Positions 6,784 through 62,117 of a stretch of 64,000 nt of DNA are shown here, in pieces. The notes beneath the pieces are model-generated. The model was not told the DNA's origin. It did not search any database and saw nothing but the letters and a program-made list of their open reading frames with translations. Numbering within the stretch: position 1 is the stretch's first letter; every line of letters begins with the position of its first letter. The stretch lies in the NCBI RefSeq assembly GCF_029633865.1, contig NC_079221.1, positions 4,378,409 through 4,442,408 on the forward strand, written 5' to 3'. Source of the DNA: Lampris incognitus. Lineage: Eukaryota; Chordata; Actinopteri; Lampriformes; Lampridae. Position numbers and translations under genes: made by a program.

Positions 6784-9700
6784 TTAAAGGCAACGCGCCT
6801 GACAGACGAATTCTTTCCTGACGTTTGCCAGGAAGGCTGAGAAGTTATTGGTCTCCTGGAGTCTTTTTTCCAAAGCAGGCAGGCACTCGATCGGGGGGTC
6901 ACTGGACAAAACTGGGGCGAGAAGAAAAAAAAAATGTCGGTTTAATTAGTTCTTCACAGTGATGGACACAAACTATAAATTCACATCATTAATGTGACGG
7001 TTTTTACCAGACTGCGTTGTTTTTGCTTTCCGTACAGTACCGCTCAGTGACATGTTTATGAATGTTACCTGCTGCAAGTGTGTGTGTGTGTGTGGGGGGG
7101 GGGGGGCGGCTTAAAAGAAATGAGTATGGGGTCTATTGGTGCCAAAATCCAAAGTGTTGTTATATAGCAACTTGTTGCACAGTATTTACTGATGAACTGA
7201 TGTGAGCAATCCTGTCACAGTACATGTAAGCCCTATTTCACATGTGATTTCGGAGTGTTTTAATGCATGAGCATAAAACTGGTTTTACACATATGTCCTA
7301 ATTCAAAGAAAGTTGAATGGGTTCATGTGGAGACAACGCTTGAGACAAACGTTTCGTCTTCAGTCTAAAGCAGCGCTTCTCAAACCTCTCCTGGAGGACC
7401 ACTTGTCCTGCATGTTTTAGATCTCTCCCTGCTCCAAACACAGCTGATTTAAATGATCAGTTTTATTATTAGGCAGCTTCGGGAGCTCATAACGAGTTGA
7501 TCATTTGCATCAGCTGTGTTGGAGCAGGGAGAGCTCTAAAACATGCAGGACAAGTGGTCCTCCAGGAGAGGTTTGAGAAACGCTGGTCTAAAGTGCCTGC
7601 AGGATCCCCACCCTTATAAACCACACAGCTGCATAATGACCCAAACCAACGATTAATTTTAATATGCAAATATGGGCGTGACCATTAAGTAGTTTCAATG
7701 GCCATGTGTACTACTCACAGAGGATTTGGGAATGTTTGCAATCACAGCATTGTAAGATGGTGACGGATGTACTCTTGACCTCCCCTCAGTTCAGGGATGG
7801 TCATTCCCTCTTCACATAGAGTACATCTGTCACCGATCTGTCGAGGTATGGACACTGTTTGGCATCCTGCTCATCATATTCTTCATAAATTTTATAATTC
7901 CATTATAATGTTGTATTGTGTAACTTGTGTAAACACAACATCATTTGACGTTGTCCGTCTTGGGAGAGAGATCCTCCTCTGTTGCTCTCCCTGAGGTTTC
8001 TTCCTGTTTTTCCTCCTTGTTAAAGGTGTTTAGGGAGTTGTTCCTTATCCAATGTAAGGGTCTAGGGCAGGATGTTGTGTTGCTGTAAAGCCCCTTGAGG
8101 CAAATGTATAATTGGTGATATTGGGCTATACAAATAAAACTGACTTGACTTGACTTAGATGAGTGATGAAACGTATCTGTCAATACACGTTATGTCCAGA
8201 TGAACTGATTCAACTTTATGTGATTTTCTTACCTGGATTACTGAGCATGCATAAAGACATGTGTCCTGACTGCTGATTATCAAGGCTGACATCTTGCTGT
8301 GGTAACTGTCATGGTATCATTTATATAGCAAATGGGAAAAGCTGATGTTGACTTAGTCTCAAGCCAAATGAATGCATTGGGGCAGTTTACATCTTTAGGA
8401 GATGTGTGGCACAATGTGTTATAACCACATGGGGGGGTTAACTACTAAGCATTTGCCTTTTGGAATGTCTGAGATTATAACTAAATCTACAGGTTAGCAT
8501 GTTGTACAGTACTCTAGTTATTGGTTGAACTACAAGATGGCCTTTTCATTTCAGTTTCAAGAGATGGTTACTAGTGGCGGGGCAGAAAAATGTGGATGAA
8601 GACAACAACATAGCATAGGACATGGGTGGTAATGGAAACCTATATACGCACTTGAAATATTTTATGGCAGCCCGGGAACCCATGTCACAATTCTCCAGCT
8701 GTGACAAACTCAGGTTACTGCCAAAAACGTCAGATTTTTTAACATCTGGCTAATGACAGCTCACAGTGGAGAAACTTGCTGGTTGCATCACTGTGTCATT
8801 CAAATCAATAAGTTGGGGCTACATCCGAACCAATCTCAGTCTGTAACGTTACTAAATAAAGAAAGAAAAAAAATTGAAAGAATGTTTTTATGTCAAGAAC
8901 ATGTTTTGCATGTCTTGTAAAGGTGGCCTTGTGGTGATACACAATTGAGGGTAGATTCACCAGGGGCTGCTGCTCCTTTAAGGCAGACATTCAGAGTGCT
9001 GACGTAGGCACTGCTTAGAGTTTTCGGGGTGGAGCCATGTTTGCAGCAGCCTAGCGGTTAGCTGGTTGCCACGAGAGATTGTGCTGTATCGGTGTCGTTT
9101 TGTGTGGCGAGTAAACGGAATTGACTCAACTCGATCTCTCCATTTCATCATTCCTGCACTCCCACAGCCTAATATATATGCAATGACTTTTTGTCCTCTC
9201 TTTCATACTTACTCTGGTATATCCCATCAGCTTGAATTCCCATTATGAAGGTGGATGCATAATCTTCTGCGGGGTTGATGTTGCGGAAAATAAATTGTAG
9301 CTTTTCACCTTTCAAATAAAAACCAAACAAGCAAACAAACAATTAAATCCTTGAACTAAAAATTAATTTTTCCTTTCTTTTCTTGCTTTGAAACCATTCA
9401 GCACTGTTTTCAGTAGATGCTTGCTAGCTAGCTAATCTGTACCAGCATCAGCTTTAGCAATATATCACACTTGTTTGAACTTACAAAGAATCAATTTCCT
9501 GTCAGACTAATTTTATTCACCTGCACCCCCCCCCACACACACACAAAGACAACTGCTGTCTTATATTAATAAGTTTTATCAAAACTGTTGATGATTTAAT
9601 TGTATGCAATATGGGCCTTACCCCGGATTTTTCTGATCTCCAACCCCAAATGTTCCTGAAACACTTCTTTGGCTCTGTTGAGATTCTTCAGTTTCTCTTT

Positions 9701-11546
9701 GTTTACTTTTTTCTGAGATTCCATCACTTAGGAATAAAGAAAAGCATCAGAATACAAAGCATCAGAATAATAGACAACATTTCACAGATGTCTTTGGGAT
9801 GTTTTTTCAGTAACTGTTAATGACCAAAAATGGAGTTAACATGTATTATGCAAGACAATATGTGGCCAAACAGGATCTCTTTTGAGTGTTCTGATCATCA
9901 AACCCAGAAACAGTATGAAGACCGTTTTTAAATATCAACTTACACTTTTTCTTCCTGGCTTGCTCCTCTCCGAGTCTCTGTATCTTCTGGCTCAGGTCAT
10001 TTTTCCGTTCCTCCTTTTGCTTGATGTCAGACAAGGTCTCAGAAATTGAATCCTGTTTCTGCTTAACTGATACAGCCATGTGTTCCAACTCTGATGGAAC
10101 AAAAATTGCATTAGAGTCCTTTGCATTTGTTTTGTAGTAGTGGGTCCAAATACCAAGTAAATTCCAATTGGTACTGGAGCAGAATGTGAAATGTAAGTAT
10201 TACAATATCACTTTATTTCTCTCACAAGAACAGGTAAAAATTGTGCTTTTTCGATTAGTGAAGTACCCAAAAATAAAAATTTAAAAAAGGGTTTTAGTGC
10301 TACCATTAATATGAAACCAAACTAAAAAAATATTTCAAACCTGCAGATAAAAATAAACAAGGAAAAACTGAGTGATTGCAAATTGGCCAGTTGAAAAATG
10401 TATGGAACTACACAGAAAACGTAAAGCTTACCTCTTCTGTATGCCTGCACTGTCTCAAACATTTTTTCATCATCCTTAAATTTCTTTGAACATGTATCTG
10501 GGAAAGAAAAGGGGGAAAGTACTTAAAGCACCTTCCTTTTTGATACTTAATACAACTGATGTATTGAGGACAATAGCTAATTCATAAATACGCAAATAAT
10601 AAAATAGATGCCATAAAAGAAAATTATACACTGCATACAGTTTTGCCCTCAACACAGCAGCAAAATGTGGAAGAAACAGGCAACAAGTACACTGAAGGAA
10701 AAGGAAAGATGTAGCGAACAAGAAGATATGGCAGACCAAACTCATAAAGGAGCTTTTCCAACAAATATGGCAACATCTATAACTAAAACTCAGGTTCAAC
10801 CATGTCTTTTGTCCATCAGAGACGAAGGTGCTGAAACAACACCACTAACCACTGTTTCAATTTGGATGGATGCTGAAACATGAGTGCAGTTATTAGCATC
10901 ACTGTAGGTGTTAGTGAGCCAACAAAAATGAGGCTTTTCAGAATTGTAGCTTGAACCATTATGTAGGTTACAATTTAGATCAAATTAATATGTCATGATT
11001 GGGCAACTGATTGTAATTAGGGCCGAAATAACTATTAAAAGAATTTCACATTTCCCATCAAAAACAAAAACACCCGTATTTCCCTTTAACTAACAATCCA
11101 ATAATCCAAAAACTATGATTTAATTCACTTTGGACAGTGGTATCTGTTGCTGTACAACAGAATTATGAAATTAACGAAGGAGCCACATTCAAGAAGCAAA
11201 TAGTTGTAAAGTAGCACACAGACTCGGCTCTCCATGACTGACCTAGTACATACTACAGCCTATCTACTACATGCTACATGTTTTGAAATTTAACAACAAT
11301 TAGTGTTGAATAACACAGAAAAAAAATTAAAACAGTTGGTGGAATGTAACAGGAAAAATCAAAACCATACCAAAGGCAGATTTCAAAATCTGTTTACTGG
11401 AGTGGTACAACTCCAAACATGCTTCGGTTATCTCCCCAGATGTCGTGACAACAAGTTTGTTATGCGTCTCCTCCATTGATTTGCTGAACAACTCACAGAC
11501 GTTTGAATCTTTAATGGAGGCCATGGTGTTCGAATGATGGATTGAT
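6784..11546 (-). CDS. spc25: Spc25, Ndc80 kinetochore complex subunit
   Basis: Spc25 pairs with Spc24 to anchor the Ndc80 complex at the kinetochore for microtubule attachment. Coding exons on the minus strand: 11371-11524 (exon starts at 11546; ATG at 11522-11524), 10432-10497, 9944-10090, 9622-9726, 9213-9308, 6784-6911. The phases fit exactly: 696 nt, 231 aa plus TAA at 6784-6786 (human 224 aa). The first ~50 residues are a variable N-terminus. Residues ~50-135 form a charged coiled coil (KQKEERKNDLSQKIQRLGEE). The C-terminal globular RWD half contains GLEIRKIRGEKLQFIFRNI and ends NNFSAFLANVRKEF, the two most conserved family blocks. For exon 9622-9726 the upstream acceptor (CTAAG at 9727-9731) was chosen because the nearer CAG acceptor breaks the frame. 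The last intron (6912-9212) holds several repeats. The gene looks intact. Confidence 0.93.
7078..7108. repeat. (GT)n plus poly(G) microsatellite
   Basis: About eight GT units followed by a run of about twelve G, in the last spc25 intron. Confidence 0.8.
7371..7585. mobile_element. Palindromic hAT MITE with perfect 8-bp duplication
   Basis: Terminal inverted repeats of about 50 bp begin CAGCGCTTCTCAAACC and end GGTTTGAGAAACGCTG. The target duplication GTCTAAAG lies at 7363-7370 and 7586-7593. Confidence 0.9.
7826..8155 (+). mobile_element. LINE 3' end (L2/CR1-like)
   Basis: 3' UTR-type sequence ending AAAGCCCCTTGAGGCAAATG...GGGCTATACAAATAAAACTG with a (TGACT)n tail, a widespread fish LINE terminus. 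It is inserted in repeat C inside the last spc25 intron and has no coding part. Confidence 0.55.
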
Positions 11547-11593
11547 CTGTGATGACATAATACAGAAAAAAAGTTTATTGGGTGCGGGTAATT

Positions 11594-11865
11594 AATAATA
11601 ATAATAAACTTTATACAAAGCCTTTCAAAACCATGTTACAAGGTGCTTTACAATACAAGATAAAATAGTAAACACAGTCAAGATAAAAACAAAAACAAAG
11701 CACAAGACCTCAGATCTGCGTTACAGAACAAGGTAAAACAGTCAGGACTCAGGATAAAGATCACAAGAACAGAAAACACAGAACCCGGTAAGACAAAAGC
11801 GGATGATTAAAACAAGTGATAAAACTGGCCAACAACACATTTACTCTAAAAAGCCTTCCTGTAAA
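11594..11865 (-). mobile_element. L2-type LINE 3' end
   Basis: An (AAT)n tract followed by AAACTTTATACAAAGC...TTACAAGGTGCTTTACAA resembles the 3' end of the L2 copy at 40008. It is non-coding and lies just upstream of the spc25 start exon. Confidence 0.5.
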
Positions 11866-14363: not shown

Positions 14364-15681
14364 GAATGGCCTCTGGAGACACGAGCGCAAAAGAAGAGCT
14401 GCTCACCATTTTGCCACCTAAAGGAAAGACTAGAGGCGAAGATATTTTTCAGGCATTCGTGGAATTCGTCAACCAGAATAAACTGCTCATTTTTAAACTC
14501 ATCTCCATTACAACCGATGGCACCTGCTATGGTAGGCCCTACTAATGGGTTTGTTGAATTGTGCAAGCAAAGTGTTTTCTCCCGGACTTCCTTAATTATC
14601 ATTGCATAATTCACCAACAAGCGCTGTGTGGGACGATCTTAAACATGAAAGAAGTGATGGATATTGCTAAGAGATGTGATGGATATTGCTAAGAGAAGTG
14701 ATGGATATTGCTAAGAGAAGTGATGGATATTGCTAAGAGAAGTGATGGATATTGCTAAGAGAAGTGATGGATATTGCTAAGAGAAGTGATGGATATTGCT
14801 ATGGAGATTGTGTGCTCGGTTAGGGCAAGGAGCCTACAGAGGAGGCTATTAGACCGGAGCAGAACACAGACCTGTTGCTGCATATGGATGTAAGGTGGCT
14901 GAGCAGAGGCAAGTTTTTTGGAGAGATTCAGTGAGTTGTTGCATCAAATCAGAGATTTTCTCAAGCTCGCTAAACATGTTGAATATACACAGCTAGGGGA
15001 CAACAAGTGGCCTTTGGATGTGGCATTCCTAGCCGATCTCGCCAGCACGCGGAATGAGCTGAATTTAGAACTACAGGGAACGGATAAATATGTAAAAAAA
15101 CATGATCAGCTCAGTGAACGCGTTTAAAAGCAAGCTCCAACTTCTGTCAAGTAGGCTGCAATGCAGTGACCTGCGAAACTTTGCTCACGTGCAGGCAGAA
15201 CTTACACGTCAGGGTAACGACACAGCACAGCTTGGTAATGCACATTGAGGAGCAAGTTCAGAGCTGCTTGTCAAAGTTTGACAGGCGCTTTACTGACTTT
15301 GCATCCATTGAACCTGTTGCCAGCTACCTGTGTTTTCCATTTGGAAGTACTGACGTGCATGGCATCGCCTCCAAAGTGGCATCACTGTTTCACCTGGACA
15401 GCCCTGCTGTGGAGAATGAGATCCTCACACTTCAAGCTGACATTGAGATTAAATCCAGGGCAACACAAGGGATGAAGGGAGCATTCTGGGAGCTACTGCT
15501 GCAGGACAAGTACCCCAACCTACGGAGATGTGCCATGAACTTCACAGCACTTTCTGGAACCTACCTGTGCGAATCTGCCTTTTCTCACATGAAGATCAAG
15601 TCGAAGTACAGATCCACAATGACAGATGACCGCCTTCTGGCCTGCCTAAGGCTTGCAACCAGCTGCTACAACCCTGACTAG
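14364..15681 (+). pseudogene. Decayed hAT transposase (ZBED/GTF2IRD2-like lineage)
   Basis: Segments in several frames match hAT transposases: EELLTILPPKGKTRGEDIF (from 14390), IVCSVRARSLQRRL (14806), ERFSELLHQIRDFLKL (14918), and a 171-codon C-terminal frame 15166-15681. That frame has NFTALSGTYLCESAFSHMK and RSTMTDDRLLACLRLA, the hAT dimerisation block. A 22-bp tandem expansion (14655-14804) and frameshifts break it. There is no N-terminal BED finger. Confidence 0.75.
14655..14804 (+). repeat. 22-bp tandem repeat inside the hAT relic
   Basis: About seven near-identical copies of GTGATGGATATTGCTAAGAG(AA). The unit encodes the VMDIA block of the transposase. 22 is not a multiple of three, so the expansion itself destroys the frame. 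Confidence 0.9.
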
Positions 15682-24186: not shown

Positions 24187-25129
24187 CCGGACCCCCTGCG
24201 TGTTTTTGATCTACCCTGAGGACCCCTCCACCTGATCTTGGGGGAGGGGGGTTGCAATTTGATAGAAACAGTAGAAACTGCATTTTAAATTGCATTATAG
24301 CATTTATTCACTCTTTGGGGCAAAAATAAGAGCTTTCAGTAGTAACTTTCAGATATGTGTAACAAAACAGAATATGTATTCAGTAACTTTCAGATATATG
24401 TAACAACACAGAATTCTTATGCAGTAACTTTCAGATATATGTAACAAAACAGAATATATATTCAGTAACTTTCAGATATATGTAACAAAACAGAATATGT
24501 ATTCAGTAACTTTCAGATATATGTAACAAAACAGAATATGTATTCAGTAACTTTCAGATACATGTAACAAAACAGAATATGTATTCAGTAACTTTCAGAT
24601 ATATGTAACAACACAGAATATGTCTTCAGTAACTTTCAGATATGTGTAACAAAACAGAATATGTATTCAGTAACTTTCAGATATATGTAACAAAACAGAA
24701 TATGTATTCAGTAACTTTCAGATATATGTAACAAAACAGAATATGTAATCAGTAACTTTCAGATATATGTAACAAAACAGAATATGTATTCAGTAACTTT
24801 CAGATATATGTAACAAAACAGAATATGTATTCAGTAACTTTCAGATATGTGTAACAACACAATTTTTATGCAGTAACTTTTAACAATGCAAACGGGAGCG
24901 AGATCTCTTATTAAAATACAATAAATTACACTTGTGAAACAGATGTAATTAGAGAAAAAAGTCCTGTTACCCTTTATAGTTTAGGTAGATAAAGGTCTCG
25001 GTCACATTTGAGTAAAATTTCTATTTCTATAAATGTCATAGGATCTTTTTTTTAAAGATATTTTACGGACCCCTTGCAATTACACCACGGACCACTAGGG
25101 GTCCGCGGACCCCCGGTTGAGAAACACTG
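24187..25129 (+). mobile_element. hAT element with 41-bp minisatellite, copy 4 (~13 units), 5' truncated
   Basis: Lacks the first bases of the 5' terminus but has the complete 3' end (GGTTGAGAAACACTG). The internal array has about thirteen 41-bp units (24340-24875) with scattered point differences. Confidence 0.88.
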
Positions 25130-25512: not shown

Positions 25513-25998
25513 TGGTAACAAAAACTACACAAATGACGCCTTAGGTTAAGTATTAGTAACTACTGAAGTCGTCGTTTGTAAAGCAAGCCATGCACCAATG
25601 GTTAGTGAGTGTTAATAGATGTTTATAAATACTTATTAATACTGCAATTCATGATTAATTCATGTATAAATGTACATGTAAATAGTGTGTTAATCGTGTA
25701 CTTACACTTTCTGAAGGATCTCATGATCCTTTAGACTGTTGTGAGTCTCAATGTGCTGCTGGCCTTTCAGTCTCATGTGTATATGCTAGCTAGTCCTCAC
25801 TTTAGATGAGCTCTTACAAAATACTTCACTGACAACTAGTAACTACCTGAATTAATCATGAATTGCAGTATTAATAAGTATTTATAAACATCTATTAACA
25901 CTAACCATTGGTGCATGCCTTGCTTTACAAATGATGAATTCAGTGGTTACTAATACTTAACTAGTGCTTCATTTGTGTAGTTATTATAAAGTGTTACT
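25513..25998. mobile_element. Long palindromic MITE
   Basis: Arms of about 200 bp: GTAACA...ACTACACAAATGA at the left and TCATTTGTGTAGTTATTATA...GTGTTAC at the right. Internal blocks are mirrored (CACCAATGGTTAGTG / CACTAACCATTGGTG; TTATTAATACTGCAATTCAT and its complement). The family was not assigned. Confidence 0.85.
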
Positions 25999-26639
25999 GA
26001 TCTTTCTGTTTCTATTTAACTATGTGCCTTGAATTGGATACCAACACTGAGTGCTGAGCAGTCATTTCGCCTATGTCGTTTTCCTCTTTTTGTAATATGA
26101 TACATATAGTATTTGATTGTAGCCTAAACAAGGCTAATATAAGGGGTCATATAACGAGGGGCATATTGACTAGGGACTTCTAGTTGTACAAAACAGATGG
26201 GCTGTGTTCTCAGTTGCAGCAGTATGAGAGGGCCATGGTTGCTATGTTAACAGAGAATGAGAATACTAATGGAGCTGAAAGGATGCATTTGTTTGCATAA
26301 GAGTTCTGTCCCTAGAGTTTAGGCGGTGGCTGCTGTTTAAACTAATAAAAGGAATTGTCCTGTGAAATATCTACTGTATAAACAGTCATCCTGTAAACTC
26401 TTAAAATTCTGAGTTCTCATGGCTCCCGTGCCACTTTATTTTACACCACGTGGATTTAAACCCTAGAGTCTACAAGTGCGGCCACACTCTGTGAAATGAT
26501 TTATGACTCCAGGTAGAGATATAAAGCAGTCTTTGATGTAAAAAGGAGAGAGAATATTGTGTTCGTTGCTTAACTGAAGAGCTTTGGCCAGGGAAGTCGC
26601 TGCCCCCCCCCCCCAAAAAAGAAAGAACTTTAGGTGGAC
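25999..26639. other. Upstream region of the g6pc2 relic
   Basis: No exon or named repeat seen. This is where the g6pc2 promoter would have been. No intact TATA plus start codon could be identified. Confidence 0.35.
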
Positions 26640-27087
26640 ATTATCTACAGCAGTGGAGCCCTCCTTATACAGCACCTCCAGAAAACTATAAGGACTACTA
26701 CTATGACTTCCTTGACATGATATGCACCCCAGTAGCATCTACTCCATCTATTGCCCTCTCTGGTTCCACTGGTACCAAAATGATCTGGGTGGCAGTTATT
26801 GGTGTATGGTTCGAATCTCATTTTTAAATGGTAAGTCGTCTTTGATGTTGTTGTGTTTTATATTCACGTGACATACCAACTTCATTTTATTTTGTATTTT
26901 TTTGCAAAAGTATCTCTTAAATCAATTTTGATTTTTCTTAGGATTCTGTTTGGTCACTGATCTTACTGGTGGGTATGGGAAACTCACCTTTACCATAATG
27001 ACTCACGACCACATCTGGGACAATTTTACATTACCTGTGAAACCAGGTTAGTGTTATGCATATATTACCTTTCATCAGCTGGCAGTG

Positions 27088-27091
27088 TCTA

Positions 27092-27145
<54 letters not shown>

Positions 27146-30100
27146 TTGGCTGCTCCCGTTAGGGGGCGCCACAGCGGACCATCCGTTTCCATCTCTTCCT
27201 GTCCTCTGCATCGTCCTCTGTCACACCAGCCACCTGCATGTCCTCCCTCACCACATCCATAAACCTCCTCTTTGGCCTTCCTCTTCTCCTCTTCCCTGGC
27301 AGCTCCATATTCAGCATCCTTCTCCCAATATACCCAGCATCTCTCCTCCACACATGTCCAAACCATCTCCATCTTGCCTCTCTTGCTTTGTCTCCAAACC
27401 ATCCAACCTGAGCTGTCCCTCTAATATACTCGTTCCTAATCCTGTCCTTCTTCATCACTCCCAATGAAAATATTATCTTCACCTCTGCCACCTCCACCTC
27501 CACCGCCTGTCTTTTCATTAGTGCCACTGTCTCCAAACCATACAACATAGCTGGTCTCACAACCGTATTGAAAACCTTCCCTTTAACTCTTGCTGGTACC
27601 CTTCTGTCACACATCACTCCGGATACTCTTCTCCACCCACTCCACCCTGCCTGCACTCTCTTCTTCACCTCTCTTCTGCACTCCCCATTACTTTGTACAG
27701 TTGACCCCAAGTATTTCAACTCATACGCCTTCATCACCTCCACTCCTTGCATCCTCACCATTCCACTGTCCTCCCTCTCATTCATGCATAGGTATTCCAT
27801 TTTGCTCCAACTTATGTTCATTCTTCTCTCCAGTTTACACCTCCACCTCTCCAGGCTCACCTCCACCTGCAACCTACTCTCGCTACAGATCACAATGTCA
27901 TCCGCAAACATCATCGTCCATGGAGACTCCTGCCTGATCTCGCCCGTCAACCTGTCCATCACCATTGGAAACAAGAAAGGGCTCAGAACCGATCCTTGAT
28001 GTAATCCCACCTCCACCTTGAACCCATCTGTCATTCCAACCGCACACCTCACCACTGTCACACTGCCCTCATACATATCCTGCACCACTCCTACATACTT
28101 CTCTGCAACTCCCGACTTCCTCATACAATACCACACCTCCTCTCTCGGCACCCTGTCGTATGCTTTCTCTAAATCCACAAAGACACAATGTAACTCCTTC
28201 TGACCTTCTCTATACTTCTCCATCAACATTCTCAAAGTAAACATCACATCTGTGGTGCTCTTTCCTGGCATGAAACCATACTGCTGCTCGCTGATCATCA
28301 CCTCTCCTCTTAACCTAGCTTCTATTACTCTTTCCCATATCTTCATGCTGTGGCTGATCAACTTTATACCTCTGTAGTTGCTACAGTTCTGCACATCACC
28401 CTTGTTCTTGAAAATTGGTACCAGTAGGTTTCTTCTCCACTCCTCAGGCATCCTCTCACTTTCCAGGATTGTGTTAAACAATCTAGTTAAAAACTCCACT
28501 GCCATCTCTCCTAAACACCTCCATGCCTCCACAGGTATGTCATCAGGACCAACTGCTTTTCCACTCTTCATCCTCTTCATAGCTGCCCTCACTTCCTCCT
28601 TGCTAATCCGCTGAACTTCCTGATTCACTATCCCCACATCATCCAACCTTCTCTCGATCTCATTTTCTTCATTCATCAGCCCCTCAAAGTACTCCTTCCA
28701 CCTTCTTAGCACACTCTCCTCGCTTGTCAGCACATTTCCATCTCTATCCTTCATCACCCTAACTTGCTACACATCCTTCCTAGCTTGGTCCCTCTGTCTA
28801 GCCAATCGGTACAAGTCCTTTTGTCCTTCCTTAGTGTCTAATCTGTCATACAACTCACCATACGCCTTTTCCACCTCTCTCTTTGCTTTACGCTGCATCT
28901 CCTTGTACTCCTGTCTACTTTCTTCATCTCTCTGACTATCTCACTTCTTCTTTGCCAACCTCTTCCTCTGTATACTTTGCTGTAATTCCTCGTTCCACCA
29001 CCGAGTCTCATTGTCTTCCTTCCTCTGTCCTGATGACACACCAAGTACCTTCCTAGCTGTCTCCCTCACTATTTCTGCAGTGGTTGTCCAGCCATCTGGC
29101 AACTCTTCACTACCACCCAGTGCCTGTCTTAACTCCTGCCTGAACTCCACACAACAGTCTTCCTTCTTCAACTTCCACTATTTGATCCTCGGCTCTGCCT
29201 TCACTCGCTTCCTCTTCTTGGTCTCCAAAGTCATCCTACAGACCACCATCCGATGCTGCCTAGCTACGTTCTCCCCTGTCACCACCTTGCAGTCTCCAAT
29301 CCCTTTTAGATGGCGCCTTCTACATAAGATATAGTCCACCTGTTTGCACTTTCCTCCACTCTTGTACGTCACCCTGTGTTCCTCCCTCTTCTTGAAATAT
29401 GTATTCACCACAGATTTCCCTCCTTTTCGCAAAATCCACCACCATCTGTCCTTCCACATTTCTCTCCTTGACACCATACCTTCCCATCACCTCCTCATCA
29501 CCTCTGTTTCCTTCACCAACATGCCCATTGAAGTCCGCTCCAATCACCACTCTCTCCTCCTTGGGTACCCTCTCCACCACTTCATCCAACTCACTCCAGA
29601 ATTCTTCTTTCTCTTCCATCTCACACCCAACTTGCGGGGGCATATGTGCTGATAACATTCAGCAATACACCTTCGATTTCCAGCTTCATACTCATCACTC
29701 TGTCTGACACTCTCTTCACCTCCAGCACGCTCTTGACATACTCTTCCTTCAGAATTACCCCTACCCCATTACTCCTCCCATTCACACCATGGTAGTAGAG
29801 TTTGAACCCACCTCCGATGTTCCTGGCCTTACTCCCCTTCCAGCTGGTCTCTTGCACACACAGTATGCCTACCTTTCTTCTTTCCATCATATCAGCCAGC
29901 TCTCTCCCTTTACCAGTCATAGTGCCAACATTCAAGGTTCCAACTCTCACTTCACACTCCTACCCTTCCTCCTCTCCCGCTGCCTCCAGACATGCCTTCC
30001 CCCTCTTCTTCTCCTTCACCCAACAGTAGCATAGTTTCCACCCGCACCCTGCTGGCCAACAGTATTGTGGCGGTCATTAGTAACCCAAGCCTCGGCCGAT

Positions 30101-30256
30101 CCGGTATGGAAATCTGACTTATGATCCACATATTTGATTTGGAAAAGATTTTACGCCGGATGCCCTTCCTGACGCAACCCTCCCCATTTATCCGGGCTTG
30201 GGACCGGCACTAAGAATGCACTGGCTTGTGCATCCTCAGTGGCTGGGTTGTGGGAT
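27088..30256 (-). mobile_element. RTE-clade LINE, nearly full length, in intron 2 of the dead g6pc2
   Basis: On the minus strand an apurinic endonuclease region (29178-29950: TLNVGTMTGKGRELADMM, VQETSWKG, IGADFNGHVG) is followed by reverse transcriptase (28757 to 27159, one 532-codon frame). RT landmarks are NYRGIKLIS, QYGFMPGKST, FVDLEKAYDRVPR, LHQGSVLSP and FADD. The C-terminal part has RRRGRPKRRFMDVV. The 3' end is GCGCCCCCTAACGGGAGCAG followed by an (AGT)n microsatellite tail at 27090-27142, typical of RTE elements. The endonuclease and linker part (28.76-29.95 kb) is broken by frameshifts and at least one stop. Possible target-site copies, CATCAgCtGGCAGTG at 27071 and CATCAaCcGGCAGTG at 30257, differ at two bases, which suggests a moderately old insertion. 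Confidence 0.85.
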
Positions 30257-31228
30257 GCATCAACCGGCAGTGCGTTTGTGAAAAATAACATGGCATGGTC
30301 TGAAGTTATCCCATCTGGTGATGCAATGGGCTCGCCATGTGTGGTATTTGATGGCCACTTCAAACCTTAATTTCACCAGGCCTACCAAGGACAACTCTGT
30401 CCATGGCTTTCAGAGGTGGGCAATCATGTTGTTTGGTCTCGATATTCCTATTTGTTCTGAATTTTTCTCATTTGGTCCTGATTATTGGTGCCTTTTTGGG
30501 TCATTCAAATAAGTGTTTGCATCTCAAAGATTTCCATTGCAACACATTTCCTACATCAGGTTATCCTTGGTGTTTTAACTTTTAACTTCCATATTTTTAC
30601 TACAAAATTCACAAGTTATCTTTTTTTTTGTGATGCCCTCTGGTAGATATAGGCATAATTTGCATGCTCTTCTTCCTTACATTTCTTAAGTATGCTAGTT
30701 ATTGAGTTGTTTGCTCACATCCCCTCAATCCACACTGCAAGTTAGGTGTACCTCCAGACGAATATTTTTCTTTTTTTTTCCTTTTGCCATTTGCCTTTAT
30801 TTGCTCTTGAAACTGATGGAAATTGATGTGTTGTGGTTCATGCTTAAAGCAAAGCCATGGTGTGCTAACCCAGACTGGAACGCCATTTAGTAGTGTGATG
30901 AGAAACCTGGGGGCCTTACTTAGTCTGGACCTGAGATGTTTGTTGACAGTTGCAAAGGGGAGAATGGTTACAAGACAAGTTTAAACTAATGTGTGTTACA
31001 GCAACTCTCACCTCTCTGCAGCTTTATAATTTCATAAAAGTCCCAACTCACAGTGAAGTTTTGATTTACACGCTATCACCCTGAGAGTGTTTTAATTCCT
31101 CTTAGTGTGGTTGCCCCTAGTTCCTTACTGTGTTCACTTACTGATAGGGTATGAAGACAGGAAACTAAATTAAGTTTGGTTGCAATTTATTCTCATTTTA
31201 TTATGCGCAAGCCCTCTATTCATCCTTA

Positions 31229-31234
31229 TTTATT
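31229..31234 (-). terminator. Candidate abcb11 poly(A) signal (AATAAA)
   Basis: Canonical minus-strand hexamer about 530 nt downstream of the abcb11 stop codon. A second one lies at 31202-31197. Both fall at the 3' edge of the g6pc2 relic, which is convergent with abcb11. Confidence 0.35.
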
Positions 31235-31761
31235 CCTAGTTAGATTAAGGTTTTTGGTTCAAAATATATTAAAAAAATGTCTCTCAATAAAACAGTGGGC
31301 ACATGATGGAGAAAAAAACCACGTCACGGCATTTTGTGGCTTCTGCTAATTTAACACTATCAGGGTTGATCAAGGACACTGCAAAGACGAGACGTCATTG
31401 TACGCCTCGCTCTGAAACGAATGCAGTACATTCCTGTTACTGTTCTATGCTAAAACCACCACGTGTTAAACGACAACAGCTAAAAATGTTCATTGTAGTT
31501 GAAAAAGAAAATCTTGTTCGGACACATTTAAAAAGCCTTCTAAATTAAAATCAAAATAACTACATGAACTCATAAACAAATAGAAATATTTGCTCTCAGT
31601 GCACAAATTAGGAAGATTCTCTAAGTGTATATTATTTGGGAGAATGAGGATGATAACAACAACAAGAATTATAATATTGATATCAATCATATTAATTATA
31701 TAACACACACTTGGACCTCATGCCCATAAAAAGTCCTTGCTAAGGCCTACCTTGCTAAGGC

Positions 31762-34700
31762 CTAGCTTAGAGGAGCCCCTGTTGTGACCAATTTAAAATA
31801 AGCACCCTTCTTAGCCATGAGTTCGTCGTGGGTGCCCTTCTCTATGATAACTCCCTGAGACATCACTGCTATGATATCAGCAGTCTGGATAGTGGACAGT
31901 CGGTGGGCGATGACGACGCAGGTTCGTCCATTTCGGGCTTCATCCAGAGCGTCTTGGACAGTCTGTGGGAAAACAGAAAACAAAGGCTTTTTATTCCCCT
32001 CCCCCCTTTTCTCCCAGTTGTACATAGCCCATTACCCCACTCTTCCGAGCCATCCCGGTCGCTGCTCCACCCCCTCTGCTGATCCGGGGAGGGCTGCAGA
32101 CTACCACATGCCTCCTCTGATACATGTGGAGTCGCCAGCTTCTTCTTTTCACCTGACAGTGAGGTGTTTCACCGGGGGGACGTAGCGCATGGGAGGATCA
32201 CGCTATTCCCCCCAGTTTCCCTTCCCCCCCCGAACAAGCGCCCCGACCGACCAGAGGAGGCACTAGTGCAGCGACCAGGACACATACCTACATCCGGCTT
32301 CCCACCCGCAGACATGGCCAATTGTGTCCGTAGGGACGCCCGACCAAGCCAGAGGTAACGCGAGGATTCAAACCGGTGATCCCTGTGTTGGTAGGCAACG
32401 GAATAGAATCGGAAAACGTGACTTGCCGTTTGAAAATCGGCTGAAGGAGGGTGTCTTTGATAATTTATCTATACAGACGGGTGACAAATTTAAGGAATAA
32501 CCAACATAAAAGTGTCTCAGAAAGGAGCTGGGCCACCACGAGCCTCCAGAACGGCTTCAATGCTCCTTGTCATAGATTCTACAAGTCTCTGAACTCTACT
32601 GGAGGGACGGAACACCATTCTTCCAAAAGATATTCCCTCGTTTGGTGTTTTGATGACGGTGGTGCAGAGCACTGTCTACCACGTCGGTCCAAAATATCCC
32701 ATATGTGTTCAATTGGGTTGAGATCTGGTGACTGTGAAGGCCATAGCATATGATTTACATAATTTTCATCCTCATCAAACCATTCAGTGACCCCTTGTGC
32801 CCTGTGGATGGGCACATTGTCATCCTAGAAGAGACCACTCCCATCAGGATAGAAATGTCTCAGAATAACTTTCTATTGATTTACAGTGACCCTTCCCTCT
32901 AACCGTACAAGTGGACCCAAACCATGCCAGGAAAAATTCTCCCCACAGCATAACAGAGCCCCCGGACCCCCTCACCGTTGGGGTCAAGTGTTTAGGTCTT
33001 TCCTTTAATTTGTCATCTGTCTGTATATCATGTATATGGTAGGCCACTACGACATATTGGTATTGGGTACCTTTTCACTTTCACAATCAAGGGCAGAGGT
33101 GGCTTCATCAAGCAGAAGTATCCTGGGGTTCCTGACAATGGCCCGGGCAATGGCAATGCGTTGTTTCTGTCCTCTAGACAGCTGAGACCCCTGGGAACCA
33201 ACTTGAGTCTCGTATTTCTGTCAGTTAGAAGTGCATCGATGGGAAATTACATCAGAAATGCTGTCGAACTGTACAAACAAAATTGCATGTTTTATACTTT
33301 TCTTTATATCGTTTATTGTTAAATTGATAGGTCTTAGATTGTGTCACATGAAAGGTTATAAATAATGTTTCCAACATGGTTTTTGTCTTTCTGGACAACT
33401 CACATCTGGCAGAGCCATCACAAAGTCATGGAGATAGGCTTTCTTAGCAGCGTCAACAATCTCCTCCATGCCAATGCTGCGTGTGTTGTCTCCATACCGT
33501 ATATTCTCAGCGATGCTGCAGTCAAACAGCACTGGCTCCTGGGACACTATGCCAATCTGAGCCCGCAGGAAGGGCACGCTAATTTTCGGAGATGGGCAAC
33601 CATCAATCAGCTGAACGTGAAAGTGAAAACTATTCGTTAATTGGCTCTTCTTTTGAGTAAAACATTTTATGATTAGCAAAAATCAAATGATAAAAGTGTA
33701 AATCGGTGTACAAACCACTTCCCCCTCATCAGGATCATAGAACCTCTCCAGCAGTTGAACACTGGTACTTTTCCCACAGCCGCTGCTACCTACAAATGCC
33801 AAAGTCTGTCCAGGCGTCACAGTCACCGTCAGCCCGTTCAGCACCTGGCTATCTGGCCGTGTTGGATAGGTGAACTTACAGTTGACAAACTGCACTTTAC
33901 CTTCAAAGCTGTCCTAGAGATGGAAGATAAAGCTAAATCATATACAAAGTAAATAATGATCATGACATCACCAAATACTTTGTTTTTTTTGGGGGGGGGG
34001 GGTTAAACCACTCTTCTGAGCCGTCCCAGTCGTTGCTCCACCCCCTCTGCCGATCCAGGGAGGGCTGCAGACTGCCACGTGCCTCCTCACATGTGGAGTC
34101 ACCAGCCGCTTCTTTTCACCTGACAGTGAGGAGTTTCGCCAGGGGGACGTAGCGCATGGGAGGATCACGCTACCCCCCCCCCCGGTTCCCCCTCCCCCCT
34201 GAACAGGCGCCCCGACTGACCAGAGGAGGCGCTAGTGCAGCAACCAGGACACATACCCACATCCGGCTTCCCACCCGCAGGCATGGTCAATTGTGTCTGT
34301 AGGGATGCCTGACCAAGCTGGAGGTAACACGGGATTTGAACCGCGGATCCCCATGTTGGTAGGCAACAGAATAGACCACCACGCCACCCGGACGCCCACT
34401 TTACTATGTTTTGATCACTCTTGTTCACGGTGAACACATTTCACCTACCCATTTCTTTCCATCTGCGTGGCTTATGCTGATTTTAGGAATCCGATCCAGT
34501 AGTTTGAAAATCTGTGCAGCAGCAGTCTTGGCTTTGGCATAATCCGGGGTGAAGGAAGAAGCTTTCCCAAGAGCTGTGGCACCAACAACTAAGACTGAAA
34601 TTACTCTTGAGGAGCAATAAGGAATAACATTAGTTCAGTTCCCTTTGACTGCGCCGCTGCAAACCAAAACATCTGAATACAGATCAGTAGAGCTGATTGG

Positions 34701-37700
34701 CAAAATCTATTTTGGTTTTAATTACATCTGTACGTAAAATGAGGGAAGAACATTATTCTGTGAAGCCTATGGTCAAACGGACAAACCTGAAAACCACCAT
34801 GTAATGTACTCCTTCAGCGCTAACCAAATAGCCCCCATATCTGAATGAAGCTGCATTTGCCATGAAAACAATACATTCGGCAAAACCAACAGAGACGCCA
34901 TAGATGACTGCTCTCTTCTTGGCAGACTTGTACGGAGACTCAAGGCGCTGCTGGAATTGCTCCACAAAAGCGCTCTCCTTGGCCAGGCTGGCAATGGTTC
35001 TGATTTTGGCAAAAGCATCACTGGACAGCTGTGGGAGAACACGGAGATCATATTCTGTAGTATTTGATTTCACAAGGTAATTAATGGATGTCTGTTAAAA
35101 TTACTGAATGTTCGGAGAGAAGTGTGGAAAAATGTTTATTTATTAAAACGGGAAAAATATAAACAGTTATTTTTGATTATCTGAGCCAAGGCCACCCCCA
35201 GTAAATACCTGGCCATCCCTGCTGCCACCCAACCTTCTACAGTGAAACAAGACAAAAAACTACATGCTGATTTTGTTTAGTGGTCAGTTCACATGGCAAT
35301 AAGCAATACACGATGAGCTTGTTGGTTTTAGATCAGTATTACTACAAGTCTTACAACAGACCTTAAAATCTAAATATGTATGTATAGGCTTGTATATAGC
35401 CATTTCAATACTGCACCATAGAATCGTCAGCAAACAGTTGATACCATGTGGCAATAAGGGAGACTGCAAAGCTGGTTTGGGCACAATATTTCTAATTCTC
35501 TATGACTTCATACAGGGTTCTTATTTTATCATATTCAAATGGTCGTTTGCATCAGTTTGCCAAATTATGTCTCTTCTTCTTGATTGCACAACTGGGTAAG
35601 CTGCAAATGTGTTGTAAAGAACATACTACAAACTTTAAACATTTTCAGTGCCAACCTCCATTCTCTGCAGATGCCACTGCTGCCAGAAGCACTGACAAAA
35701 TGGACCCCCCCCAACAAGGTACCCGCACCCTCCATCTGCCCAGTTTCCCCTGGATGTTGGCAAGGTGAGAAAAGTCATGTGTGAGGATCTTACCTGACCC
35801 GCATCTTCCATTGCTTTCTTATCTTCATTTGCAAAACCTGTCAGCAGTCTTACTTGGAGGACTATAGACACTCCGATGAGTGGCAGGAAGCACATAACCA
35901 CCAAAGATAACTTCCAGCTGAAGTAAAAGGCAATGATTAAAGCTGCTCCAACATTGGTCAAGGAATTCACAACTAAGCCAATCTGAGGTCCTGTTGCCTA
36001 CAGAAACAAGAACAATCATACAGAACTCAAACACAATAACGATTTGAAAGCTATCCTTCTTAATATTGAAGATAATGCTATGTGGGTACAGGCCTGCAGC
36101 TTTGTGGTCACTGTTACTCACCCCTTTGACCATGGAGGCATCAGTGGCCAGTCTGGTGGTTAGAGCCCCAGCGCTATTACTGGGATCATCAAACCAGCCT
36201 ATCTCCTGTCTTAACATGGCCTGAAATCCCTTTTTCCTTAGGCGGCGGGAGAGCAGTTCCCCAGACTTAGCAAAGGCATACCCCTGGATGAATGACCATG
36301 CCAACAATTTACCCATATTCTGGTTTGATTCTGCTCTACGACAACTTGGCATCAATTTATGCTGGCGTGTAAGTTATCTGCTCTTAACCATAAAATTAAA
36401 TCACACTTGGTGATGCAGACCTGAATGAAATGGGAGAAGAAACTCGCCCCGGCCAGAATGCAAAACAAAACACATACTCCGTTGATCTGCTGCCTCTGAT
36501 CATTCAAGTTGGGGATGGAAAACGTCTAGAGAATACAAAAGAGACATGAACAACTTCCAGAAAGTGAGACTTGATTTCTGCTAAAACAAGTCATGCATGA
36601 GACTTTTACCTCACCCATCTCATTTACATAATTGCTTAGTGTTTTAAAGTTCTTACGCTGCAGGGGTGAGGATTGATGTGAGGATGTAGTAGTTTTATAA
36701 GGAGGATATATCTTTACTTCAGTTTGTGTCTGTAAATGTTTGCATAGTTTTGGGTGTGTACAAGCATAGTGAATATAAGGATAACAAAGAAAAAAGGAAA
36801 CGAAGCATGACTATATAATTTTCCTCACCCCCAAGAGCTGGCTGAATAACACAGCATAGATAGGGCTGACGGCGCCATTGAGGGAAGCTCCCAGTGATCC
36901 CAGCAGTAAATAAGGCCATTCTTTTTGGTTGTACTTAAAGATAGATGCCACTAAAGCTGGCTCTATATCGTCCTCCGGATCATCCTCATATTCCTGTTGA
37001 GAGATTTGTGTTACAGCTAAATAATTTCATTCCCTCAAGGGAATGAGTTGGTAATAGTTATATTCATGTATGGCACTATCCAGAAAAGAAGCTCAACACC
37101 TTTGCTGGTCTCATTTCACTGCCTGGATTTATTTTGAGATCACTAGATATAGCATCTGGTGAATAATCTCTAGACAATTTGGATTGAGATCGCAGACAAA
37201 GAGATCTACAGGAAATGCATTGAGAAAAACACAGTTATTGCCAATAGACATTGTCTCCCATTTTCTTCCTGTAACAAAAAGCTTTCACGGATGATTCTGT
37301 GGTCGAAAGTAATGCAATATGCCTGTTAACCGGATTTACCTTATGCTGGATCTCGAGTTTTCTCGGCTAAGATTACTTGCTTTTATGTCAGATTCTTCTT
37401 CACTAGATTCGCTGTCCAAACCTGGCACATAAACCATTGCAACAGATTCAGCCGTGTGTCAAGCAAAGCTGAGGGACAGGAGAATGCCCCATGCATGAGA
37501 CCTACCGTTTTCTTCCACCGAAGTACTGCCCCCACTGTTTTGGAGGCTAACCAGAGTAAAGTAGACACCCTGCTTTTCTAGAAGCTCACTGTGTGTTCCC
37601 CTCTCCACACTTCGTCCATTCTCAAACCCAATGATGACATCTGCATTTCTGATTGTGGAAAAACGGTGGGCGACGGAGACGGTTGTCCTGCCTGTGCACA

Positions 37701-40700
37701 CCTGAAATACATAATGGTATATCATGTCATGTAAGGTATCACTGGGGTCACGGATCAAAGGTGACTGTGTCTACGTCCAACACTGAGGTTGCTAATAGAG
37801 AGGGGTCCACCTTATTCAATGCCTCCTGGACGACAGTTTCACTTTCATTGTCTAAAGCAGAGGTGGCCATGTCCAACAGCAGGATCTTGGGGTTACGTAT
37901 CAGAGCTCGGGCAATGGCAATCCTCTGCTTTTGTCCTCCACTCATCTGACTACCACCCTCCCCCACCAAGGTATCAAATTTCTGAAATATTGTGCCGAAA
38001 GGTTACATTGCACCAAAGTAAACTTGAATAAGATGATGTAATTGAAGAGTCACATGCAAAAACAAGTTAGTTTTGATACTTCCCATCCATGGCATCATTA
38101 TACAATAGCTGATCTACAAACATTCATATCATGAGATCTTGATAGTGGATTATTTTAATATTCACTATCACTCAGGACATTCCTGATATTGTGCATAGTG
38201 TTCTATTTCTTTTATGTCTTTTGTAGCAAGACTGCAAATGAATAAGGCAAGTAGCTGCCAGTTTGAAGAAGAAACAATGTTGATGTCGCTGACAAGAAAA
38301 TATGGAAGAGCTCGTATACTGCCTTTGCTAACAGAGACTAATACATCAATAGCTAAAACTCAGGTTCAATCATGTTTGCATGTTTTTTTTGGGGGATCCA
38401 CCCCCCCCCTTTTTTTCTTCCAAATTGTATCTTGCCAATTACCCCACTCTTACAAGCCGTCCCGGTCGCTGCTCCGCCCCCCTCTGTCGATCCAGGGGGG
38501 GGCTGCACACTACCACATGCCTCCTCCGATATATTATGTGGAGTCGCCAGCCGCTTCTTTTCACCTGACAGTGAGGAGTTTCGCCAGGGGGACATAGCAC
38601 GTGGGAGGATCACGCTATTCCCCCCAATTCCCCCTCCCCTCCGAACAGGTGCCCCAACTGACCAGAGGAGGCGCTAATGCAACGACCAGGACACATACCC
38701 GCATCTGGCTTCCTGCCTGCAGACACGACCAATTGTGTCTGTAGGGATGCCCGACCAAGCCGGAGGTAACACGGGGATTCGAACTGGCGATCCCTGTGTT
38801 GGTAGGCAACGGAATAGACTGCTACGCTACCCGGACACCCCTATGTTTTCATGTTTGCCAGTATAAAATGTGCTGATATAACAGCAAAGGTAACTCAAGT
38901 TTCATTTCACATGGATCTCTGGGGCCTTGCCATGTGGTCAGACACCAATGCAGTTCATAGTACTACCATATTTTTCTGTGAGTTAAACAAAAAAAAAAAG
39001 AAAAAAAAAGAAGGATGTTCAGGATTGCAGCTTTAGTTAAATCAACTACTATACTGTTATTCAGAAGAGAAGGTGTTGTGGGTACCTGTGGCAGGTCCAT
39101 GATAAAATTATAAGCATTAGCTTCTTTTGATGCCTTGATAATATCCTCTGTGGCGACCCCTGGTTGACCGTAACGAATATTCTCAGCAATGGTTGTGGCA
39201 AACAGTGCTGGCTCCTGCTCCACAACACCAATTAGAGAGCGCAGCCACCTGACATTCAGGCTACGCATGTCATGGCCATCTAAAGTCACCTGGGATGATA
39301 TAGACATGTGATGTAACACCGTGTTAGCGCAATAGCCTGCACACTTTCTAATGATGTCCTGTGTGTCTGTAAAAGTGGGATGATCGTTACCATTCCTTTG
39401 TTTGGGTTGTAAAACCTCTGGATTAGCTGGATTAAAGTGCTCTTTCCGGATCCACTTGGTCCAACAAAAGCGGTAGTTTGTCCGGATTTGATCAGCAAAC
39501 TCACATTGTCTAAAACCTGAAAAAAAACAACACACATGGCCCTTAGAAAGTCTCACTCTGAGAAGTGTAAATGTAAGTCAAAGTATTCCTATGCACACAG
39601 ATACCTTGACCTCGGGCCGAGAATCATAATAAAATGTGACATTGTGGAATTCAATATCACCCTTCACTTGGTCTAATTTGTGACCCTCTTCTGAGAAACA
39701 GTTGATTTCTGGTTCCTGTTAAGGTGAAAAGTAAACAGATGTGTTTTATGGTTTACATCCAAATGTCTTAAAATCTGTTACCCCAATTTTAGTTTTGGAT
39801 GATATCTAGCCAGGTCTATAGGGACATTTTGGTCTTACCCGGTCGATGGTGTCAAAGACAGGTTTTGCTGCTGCAAGACCGGAAGCAAAGGCCTCCAGGC
39901 AGGGTGAAGTTTGGCCCAGGTTAAGAGCTGCTATGAGTACTCCAAAAAATACCTGGGGACAAACGAGGCCACCACATGTCAACTCAAAACCTTCTAAGTG
40001 TCATAGATAATAATAATAATAATAATGATAATACATTTACTTATAAAGCACTTTTCTAAAACAATGTTACAAAGTGCTTTGCAAAGAAATAAAACCAGAC
40101 AAGGCAAAAATAAGAGTAAGGCCAAATAAGCAAGAGTAAAAACAAAAACAGTATAAATACATAAAAACAAATATCTCAATATCTAAATATCTTTCATAAA
40201 AAGCAAAGTTTTAAGAAAAGATTTAAAGAAGTTAGAGACTTGGTTTGTCTTAGTTCAACAGGAAGAGGGTTCCATGGTGTGGGGGCTCTAACAGCAAAAG
40301 CCTGATCACCCTTTGTAACAAACCGAGACCTGGGCATAACTAGCAGGGCTCCATCTGCAGAACTTAATAGTCGAGGGGTCATATACCAGGTCAATAAATC
40401 AGAAATGTATCTAGGAGCAAGACCATTTGAAGCCTTAAAAGTGAGCAATAAAATTTTAAAATCAATTCGAAATATAACAGAGAGCCAGTGTAGGGAGGCA
40501 AGCACAGGAGTGATATGGTCATGCCTCTTTGTTCCGGCAATGAACCGAGCAGTGGAGTTTTGTACCAACTGCAGACGGTGGAGGGAGCCTTTGCTGACAC
40601 CAGAATAAAGTGTCGATAGTCAAGCCGAGAACAGATAGTCAAGCTGAGAATAGACAAAAGCATGTACAACTTTTTGCAGATAGGCAATTGATATGTGTTT

Positions 40701-43700
40701 TTGTGTTGCACTGCTGTGGGCTGGGGGAAATGGAATTTTGTTTCTTTTGTGTATGTAGTACATAATATGAAACGACAAATAAATTGTTCCTGATTCCTGA
40801 TAAAAATGACCTAACTTTGGAGATTAGTTTAAGCTGGGGAAAGGATGACTGAACAACATGTTTGATTTGATTTCAAAACCGAGGTTAGCGTCGAATATTA
40901 CCCCAAGATTCCTAGCAGCCTATTTAAGACTACCTGACAGACCACCAAGATTAGTAACAAAAGGGCTGCTGGAATTTTTGGGACTGAACAGAATGACCTC
41001 AGACTTATCATCATTAAGTTTGAGAAAATGTTTGGACATCCAGGATTTAATTTCAGAGGCAAGTTGTGAGATTTGTTAGAGCGCTAGGATCTGTGGGTTT
41101 TAGTGGCATGTATACCTGAGTGTCGTCAGCATAATAATGGTAGAGCACATCGTAATTTTGAATGACCTGGCCAAGGAGCAGCATGTATATAGAAAAGAGA
41201 AGGGGGCCAAAAACTGAACCTTGCAGGACACCACAACTCAACTGAGCCATCAAGGAGGTAGAGTTACCTAGAACAACAGAAAAAGTTCTGTTGGTGAGGT
41301 AAGAGCGTAATAAGCTAAGAGCCGAGCCCTTGATGCCAACCTAAGTGTCTAAGCAATGTAAGAGGATGTTGTGATCGACTATGTCAAAGGCAGCACTTAA
41401 GTCTACAAGAACTAAAATCGAGCAGTCACCTCTGTCTGCAGTCAGCATTAGGTCATTAATGACCTTAACTAGAGCTGTTTCGGTACTATGAAGTGATCTA
41501 AAACCAGACTGGAAACTATTAAAAACACTATTAATGTTCATAAAAGAAATCAATTGAGAAGAAATTACTCTCTCCAGAACCTTCAATAGAAAAAAGACAA
41601 TTGGGAGATTGCTCTGTAGTTATTAGGGACAGGGGATCTAAATTAGGTTTCTTCAGCAATGGGTGAACAGTGGCATGCTCAAAAATGTCTGGAAAAGAAC
41701 CAGAGGCCAGAGAATTAAGAATTTGCAGAATAACAATAGATCTAATGCATTAGACAGTATCTCAGAAGGAAAATGAGAATAAAAAGGAAATGAAAATTAC
41801 TTTTCTTGCATACCTGCATGAGACCACCTGGAGAGAGCTCCTTAGTGTCAATGACGAGTTTAGATCCATACCAGAATGCCAAAGCAAAACAAAGCAATAT
41901 GATGGACCATATGAAGCCTTGAAACACTCCTATGATAGTGCCTTTTTTCACACCCCAGTTCTGGGCTTCCACAAGGCTAGTGTCATACCTGTCAGATTTT
42001 ATGTATTATTTTCATTTTCATGTTCAATGGCATGTTCTTAATCATGTGAAAGCATGAAAAAAATACCTTTCAGCTTCCCTCTCCTCTCCTCCAAAGGCTG
42101 CCACTGTTCTAATGGATGATAGGACCTCATCAGCCACCGAGCCTGCCTTTGCATAGGCCTTTATCTCCCACTGTGTCATTCTGGCCAAACTCTTCAGTGG
42201 TAAAGCAGAAAAATGCTGAAATTACTTTTGCTCCAATCAGAAAATGCTGCAATATTTAAAACAATGCATGCAATATACAACAAAGCTTAGAAGCAGGAGG
42301 CTGGTACTTTTGAACTGCAGTTACCAGTCAATCATTCTGTCAAATTGCTGCTCACCCAAGCCATCAGTCCAGCACCTAGGCCAATTAGTGGGCTCACTGC
42401 AATTACCACCACAGTCAGCTTCCATCCCCCTATGAAGCCCACCGTGAAGCCAAAGATAAACGTGGAGATCTTCTCAATGAAGACCGGCATCTGATTAGCA
42501 ATGGCACCATTGATCTTGTTGATGCCACTAAATTGAAGAGAACACATTAAAAATGTAACGTTTAAAAAAAAAAGTCTCTCAACTTTATTAGGTTTAGAAA
42601 ACATTTTTTAGCCAGCCTGCATATATCTATCTCCAGACAGGCCCACAACTCACTCAGATATCCTTGTGTTTAATTCACCAACAGAGTTGAGGTCAAACCA
42701 GCCCATCTCCATTTGCATGACTTTTTGGAAGTATGTTGCCCGGATTCTACAAATTTGACTTGCAGCTGCTGTCACCCAGAGGGCTGTCTACAATAATGAT
42801 ATTTTCAGTAAGACAAAGTTTGTATACTTAGGGAAACATTGTTAATTTGCCTTAAGGCATACTCACAAATGATTTTAATTTTGACTTGTACTGCTATGTT
42901 CCACTTTCCAAATTGCAATACGACTATGGAAACTTGATGTGCATGTACTTACTTGTAAATAACTGCAAAGCAGGACGACTATTCCAATTGCAACATAGTA
43001 ATACGCAAACATGGTCATTTGATCTTCGATACCGCCCCTGCCAAAGGAATTGATACACAGAAATTAAATTAAGAGCAGCTCTTTATTACAACTAGAATCC
43101 AATCAATGCATTAAGCAGCAATAAATGAATCTCCACTTACCCACAATAGACAGTGGTGTTTTCAAAATTCTCATATATTGAGCCATTGGTCCAGTAGATT
43201 GTGTTGTTGATGCATGTTTTATTAACGTGTGACAATTCTTGGATCTCAATCTCATAACTCACAAAGGTGTTGGTCATCCAGCTATACACCAGAAGAATAA
43301 AAGGGCCAGCTGCACCATGTATGAAGGCACACAAGCCTCCTACCACCATCATTAAAGTGTCCTTCCAAGTGGCAAATCGAAACTAGGTTGAACGAGAAAA
43401 GTCTTTTGCAAAATGCTTCAAATAATTCATTTTGTCTTCAAAAGGAAAACAGAGTATGGATGAGTTGAAACAAATAGTGCTCCAGAAATTATATGACTGA
43501 TGATATTTACCAGCTGAAAAAATGCAATACTTTGTGTCTTCTCCTTTTTCTTGCCATTTCTGTTAAACATATTGATGAGAGGAACGCTTATGAATATCAC
43601 AAAGAAATCTAAATATACAGATATCAGTCAGAGGGTTGACATAACAAACACGCTTATGGTACAAACTTACCCTTTTTTGCCATCTGTTGAAAAAAAAAAT

Positions 43701-59173: not shown

Positions 59174-59175
59174 TT

Positions 59176-61862: not shown

Positions 61863-62117
61863 AATTCGGGGGGCAGCCGGAAACTGGCGGAATGCGAACC
61901 CGGATCTCCCTCACCATGGGCGACTACGTTAACCAGTCGACTAAAGGGTCCGACCCGATAGCCAAGGGTTAGAGAGTCTAGTCATCCGTGGTCGTTACAC
62001 TACCCCCGTCCTTCGGAAAGTGCGTCCCCGTACTTCAGCATATCAGCTCCCTCACGCTTCTGGGCGCACGTGCTTCCGACGGCTTCACGGTCTCACCATC
62101 CCACTTCTGACACCAAT
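61863..62117 (-). mobile_element. Miniature LTR element, second copy, inverted: one LTR plus internal region
   Basis: LTR 61863-61999 joined to an internal segment ending at the same primer-binding-like motif (complement of TTGGTGTCAGAAGTGGGA at about 62117). The outer LTR is absent. It abuts the gypsy gag fragment. Fossil. Confidence 0.6.

Follow-up and report, generated by a model that had tools for sequence, protein, structure and literature searches.

Remains of a g6pc2 gene, very probably a unitary pseudogene, between spc25 and abcb11 in Lampris incognitus

The analysed DNA, called the window below, is a stretch of 64,000 nucleotides from the genome of Lampris incognitus (positions C14:4378409-4442408 of the assembly). 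Remnants of five g6pc2 exons were located at 26634-31164 of its plus strand, between the genes spc25 and abcb11. The features of the region are as follows.

6787..11635, minus strand: exons of spc25, the left neighbour (limits approximate, first exons placed by eye; Pfam Spindle_Spc25)
26634..26831, plus strand: g6pc2 pseudogene, exon 1 (start ATG changed to GTG; frame called as broken at four positions; GTAAGT still present as donor)
26942..27046, plus strand: g6pc2 pseudogene, exon 2 (105 nt; splice sites on either side apparently preserved, judged by eye)
27159..30034, minus strand: retrotransposon copy in intron 2, probably non-LTR (limits approximate; reverse transcriptase reading frame and endonuclease-like pieces)
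30311..30418, plus strand: g6pc2 pseudogene, exon 3 (alignment to human G6PC2 and to the fish paralogue)
30467..30580, plus strand: g6pc2 pseudogene, exon 4 (tblastn and alignment; two frame breaks called near each other)
30689..31164, plus strand: g6pc2 pseudogene, exon 5 (tblastn as far as 30933, and alignment)
31768..43382, minus strand: exons of abcb11, the right neighbour (limits by eye; ABC domains and last-exon match)

The remnants were searched for by tblastn, using residues 54-185 and 195-339 of human G6PC1 (letters from PDB 9j7v) against the whole window. All convincing matches fall on the plus strand, at 26765-26824 together with 26928-27044 (E 1e-10), at 30482-30574 (E 5e-8) and at 30710-30933 (E 1e-11), the next best match in the window having an E-value of 0.03. 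The best match obtained with 21 control sequences, one reversed and 20 block-shuffled, reached 31.6 bits (E 0.007). In this search of the window, no match was found to exon 3 or to the end of exon 5; both were recovered by frameshift-tolerant alignment only, exon 3 being the weakest, with 22 aligned residues. The reference for this alignment was a human G6PC2 sequence, supported by its having Arg79, His115, Arg168, His174 and Gln178 at the positions given in PMC10776900. Scores of 164, 114, 68, 131 and 361 were obtained for exons 1 to 5 against this reference, to be compared with background maxima of 39, 36, 29, 43 and 44 over 20 random same-strand stretches of the window per exon.

Remnant pieces, with an X placed at each break, match G6PC1 in PDB with E-values of 2e-25 and 6e-23. 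A PDB sequence search with exon 1 alone gave no match, and four of the six remnant pieces had none in Pfam; the PAP2 family was seen below the cut-off with exon 4 (E 0.013) and with a joined query (E 2.9). The five exon remnants in ancestral order, which an earlier note on this DNA had claimed on reading the letters, are confirmed, all five of them by frameshift-tolerant alignment. The span proposed there, 26640 to 31291, is in need of correction at its limits: the start lies at 26634 and the alignment reaches 31164.

The class of the remnant was established by comparing alignment scores. The highest, 838, was obtained with human G6PC2 (186/306 aligned residues identical, exons summed). Human G6PC1 followed at 609 (143/307), then the intact G6PC1-type protein of this fish at 578 (142/308) and human G6PC3 at 317 (82/212). 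Nearest to G6PC2, flanked by spc25 and abcb11 and built of five exons, the remnant has what is expected of a G6PC2 orthologue. Three joined exon reads of the left neighbour match the Pfam Spindle_Spc25 domain (E 5e-18), and the last exon of the right neighbour has the bile salt export pump as its best match (E 2.7e-46), ABCB1 being second (9.9e-44), so that ABCB11 is preferred over ABCB1 by 8 bits only. The identity of both neighbours, already named in the earlier note, is confirmed by these matches. The order is the same as that at the human locus, SPC25(-) G6PC2(+) ABCB11(-). Assignment of the remnant to g6pcb2, a gene reported as lost in Percomorpha, was considered and rejected on class and neighbours.

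Lesions were read exon by exon. In exon 1, the start ATG has become GTG (26634), and in exon 4 the catalytic Arg168 has become Lys; both changes come in addition to those listed in the earlier note. Exon 4 also carries Leu in place of Pro176, while His174 is kept. Exon 2, of 105 nt as compared to 110 nt in the intact paralogue on C22, has a TGA at 26958-26960 in place of the catalytic Arg79, and the next residue is changed from Pro to Ser. A stop codon at the Arg of the FGxRP motif had been proposed, and it is indeed there; the motif had been given as FGQRP, whereas the letters read FGH-stop-S. Exon 3 could be aligned over 30311-30377 to human G6PC2 and as far as 30419 to the fish paralogue; from 30311 onwards PSGH reads PSGD, as noticed earlier, with loss of the catalytic His115, and a frame break follows near 30341. 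Exon 5 contains a stop, as noticed earlier, a TAG at 30743, in addition to further frame breaks. This position is called as a stop in the alignment to the fish paralogue and as two breaks in that to human G6PC2. Where two frame breaks are called near each other, some may be a single event split by the aligner rather than separate mutations; for this reason the several frameshifts reported before, although borne out, are given here as breaks called in four of the five exons, and not as an exact number.

The catalytic residues of glucose-6-phosphatase are Arg79, His115, Arg168 and His174, according to PMC10776900. At these positions the remnant reads stop, Asp, Lys and His, so that His174 alone remains of the four residues expected in a functional glucose-6-phosphatase. 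A broader view was obtained from the 93 positions invariant across human G6PC1, G6PC2 and G6PC3: 58 are kept in the remnant, 26 are changed, breaks and stops included, and 9 are deleted or unaligned, as compared to 85 of 93 kept in the intact paralogue that this genome has on C22.

Splice sites are readable in some of the introns, namely in intron 1 and, at its donor, in intron 2; judged by eye, donor 1, acceptor 2 and donor 2 seem usable. The claim that introns are kept holds for these sites, and has to be amended for intron 2, which has received a retroelement, and for intron 3, which has shrunk: judging from the aligned exon ends, it would now measure about 50 bases or less. The element in intron 2, about 3 kb in size, carries a reverse transcriptase frame of 535 codons, still open (RVT_1, E 2e-31), a match to Exo_endo_phos just under its cut-off (E 4e-5) and a TAC repeat at its low-coordinate side. 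The search for target-site duplications around it gave a single 7-base match, which is not convincing. Being intronic, the element is not one of the coding lesions.

Other repeated elements were observed in the window. By eye, a minisatellite repeating every 40 bases or so is seen at 24300-24880, a large inverted repeat resembling a non-autonomous transposon at 25550-25970, and, on the minus strand, open frames resembling an LTR retroelement polyprotein at 59100-61980. A possible hAT transposase remnant lies at 15118-15678 of the plus strand (Dimer_Tnp_hAT, E 5e-4, just under the cut-off).

Other G6PC copies were searched for in the whole assembly, 1,481,484,146 bases (1.48 Gb) in 537 contigs. 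The search with human G6PC1 residues 195-339, the exon 5 stretch, for which all 10 of 10 candidates were scored, identified eight places: an exon of a G6PC1-type gene on the minus strand of C22 (E 3e-54), a second one on its plus strand (1e-43), an exon of g6pc3, also on C22, near 23.926 Mb (E 9e-9), the window remnant (E 1e-5) and four places with E 1.4 or worse. With the full fish G6PC1-type protein as query (25 of 25 candidates scored), 20 places were found, 17 of them in the same four G6PC loci (E up to 0.064) and three elsewhere with E 1.4 or worse. In these two genome-wide searches of the 537 contigs, no other g6pc2 locus was found. A PAP2 family search of the genome returned 18 places, the window remnant and g6pc3 not among them; when all 18 were searched by tblastn with the two G6PC1 stretches, G6PC was identified at one only (L017), and a search for G6PC in the flanks L021 and L022 gave no match. 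The G6PC family is therefore represented by four loci, namely the g6pc2 remnant, g6pc3 and two genes of G6PC1 type, one intact and the other with stops and breaks, a total which depends on the completeness of the assembly. The earlier note had made its reading conditional on no other copy replacing g6pc2; no second g6pc2 was found in the assembly, and one intact G6PC1-type gene is present.

The intact gene, on the minus strand of C22, has 360 codons in five exons, with no break; its last residues are KKSL, and the active-site motifs are preserved. The exons of g6pc3 are open in the frames read. The remaining locus is located as follows.

C22:19984851-19988784 (L020:352-4285), plus strand: second gene of G6PC1 type, arranged head to head with the intact one on the minus strand of C22

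Its class is G6PC1-type, with a score of 975 to human G6PC1 versus 818 to G6PC2. Exon 1 is interrupted by a TAG and a frame break, exon 2 by a further TAG, and the frame of exon 4 is broken near its end. Exon 5 falls within 225 open codons, in which the aligner calls one break near the C-terminal end. Out of the 93 invariant positions 74 are kept, 16 are changed and 3 are lacking. From these features, the locus is a probable pseudogene, which would be younger than the g6pc2 remnant.

Three other explanations of the g6pc2 remnant were weighed. Indel errors of long reads can by themselves produce frame breaks, and an intact g6pc2 might be hidden behind sequencing or assembly errors. Besides the breaks, however, the start codon and three catalytic residues carry substitutions, and among the 93 invariant positions 35 are changed or lacking versus 8 of 93 in the intact paralogue, which in the same assembly runs unbroken over its 360 codons; such an origin is considered extremely unlikely. 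A whole-genome duplication took place in teleosts, which carry G6PC1-type genes in more than one copy (PMC5414149), and the remnant could be a dead duplicate, either processed or derived from that duplication, with a working g6pc2 elsewhere. Against this, the remnant has introns and ancestral neighbours, places outside the four G6PC loci scored E 1.4 or worse in both whole-genome searches, and an intact g6pc2 should outscore its own remnant by far. A surviving copy elsewhere is thus very improbable.

A similarly low probability is given to a new role of the remnant, as a transcribed non-coding RNA or a truncated peptide. Three splice sites, donor 1, acceptor 2 and donor 2, seem undamaged, so that the locus may be transcribed, and an open stretch of 96 codons spans much of exon 1. 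Changes at family-invariant residues and breaks in four of five exons are, on the other hand, what drift predicts, and nothing positive points to a new role.

The locus is therefore very probably a unitary pseudogene, in which the only g6pc2 gene of this fish survives, unprocessed and in its original place, as a remnant; synteny, sequence class and many lesions of different kinds support this. The earlier note is in agreement: the gene is disabled in place and is not a retrocopy, and no intact copy was found in the assembly. With functional human G6PC2 the remnant shares the exon order, the spc25 and abcb11 flanks and the 186 residues counted above; unlike it, the remnant has no start codon, Arg79, His115, Arg168 or open frame.

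In mammals, g6pc2 helps to set the glucose level for pancreatic insulin release, and in beta cells the back-reaction from glucose-6-phosphate to glucose opposes glucokinase. Given the lesions, production of an active G6PC2 enzyme from this locus would be impossible. The back-reaction opposing glucokinase would then be missing, or carried by another enzyme, and insulin release would respond at lower glucose, by analogy with G6pc2-null mice. To judge from mammals, islet glucose cycling would be reduced unless g6pc3 or the remaining g6pc took over. Since an intact G6PC1-type gene remains, glucose release by liver and gut should persist. Glucose production is probably retained, given this gene and the open g6pc3 exons, and a gluconeogenic loss is not supported.

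Loss of g6pc2 is not unique to this fish. Rat G6pc2 is a pseudogene (PMC5017610, PMC5297017, PMC8941207), and glucose cycling was negligible in an insulinoma line of that species (PMC8941207); platypus and most marsupials have only one G6PC gene (PMC5297017). The gene lost in the rat is the same as in L. incognitus, although the rat is a mammal and the fish genome also has a second broken G6PC gene. The G6pc2 knockout mouse is described as mild (PMC5297017), and fasting glucose in humans is determined to an important extent by variants of G6PC2 (PMC5017610). Nile tilapia has g6pca1, g6pca2, g6pc2 and g6pc3, known from complete cDNAs (PMC5483027); the g6pc2 loss is therefore not general to teleosts, and relative to this set L. 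incognitus seems to keep two of four G6PC genes. Teleost losses with remnants are reported in PMC5414149, with two matches for g6pca, 49 and 58 residues long, and two for g6pcb2, of 19 and 20 bases; these concern G6PC1-type genes, whereas g6pc2 is concerned here, and the likeness lies in the loss of a G6PC gene with remnants. The word g6pc2 is absent from the main text of that paper. None of the literature matches listed names a fish g6pc2 pseudogene, which does not prove its absence in print, and no g6pc2 expression data for fish islets were found in the literature.

The glucose-6-phosphatase set is most likely reduced in this fish. It may be proposed, quite tentatively, that the lineage pared the set to one G6PC1-type gene and g6pc3, having lost g6pc2 first and one of the head-to-head G6PC1-type genes later, and having kept glucokinase; under such a double loss, islet cycling would be gone and glucose output would depend on a single gene, perhaps in connection with a carbohydrate-poor diet. 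If so, the fish would be an independent natural knockout in which the glucokinase exons are still open, and it could be asked whether an animal can do without glucose cycling in its islets, and on which diet. As a caution, g6pc annotations should not be transferred between fishes without a frame check.

The statement on glucokinase refers to the two exons read, both open: one matches glucokinase with an E-value of 1.3e-34, hexokinase-2 being next with 1.6e-32, and the assignment of the other was made by eye. At C11:55230233 and 55444425, about 214 kb apart, two hexokinase-type exon sets were observed that closely resemble each other.
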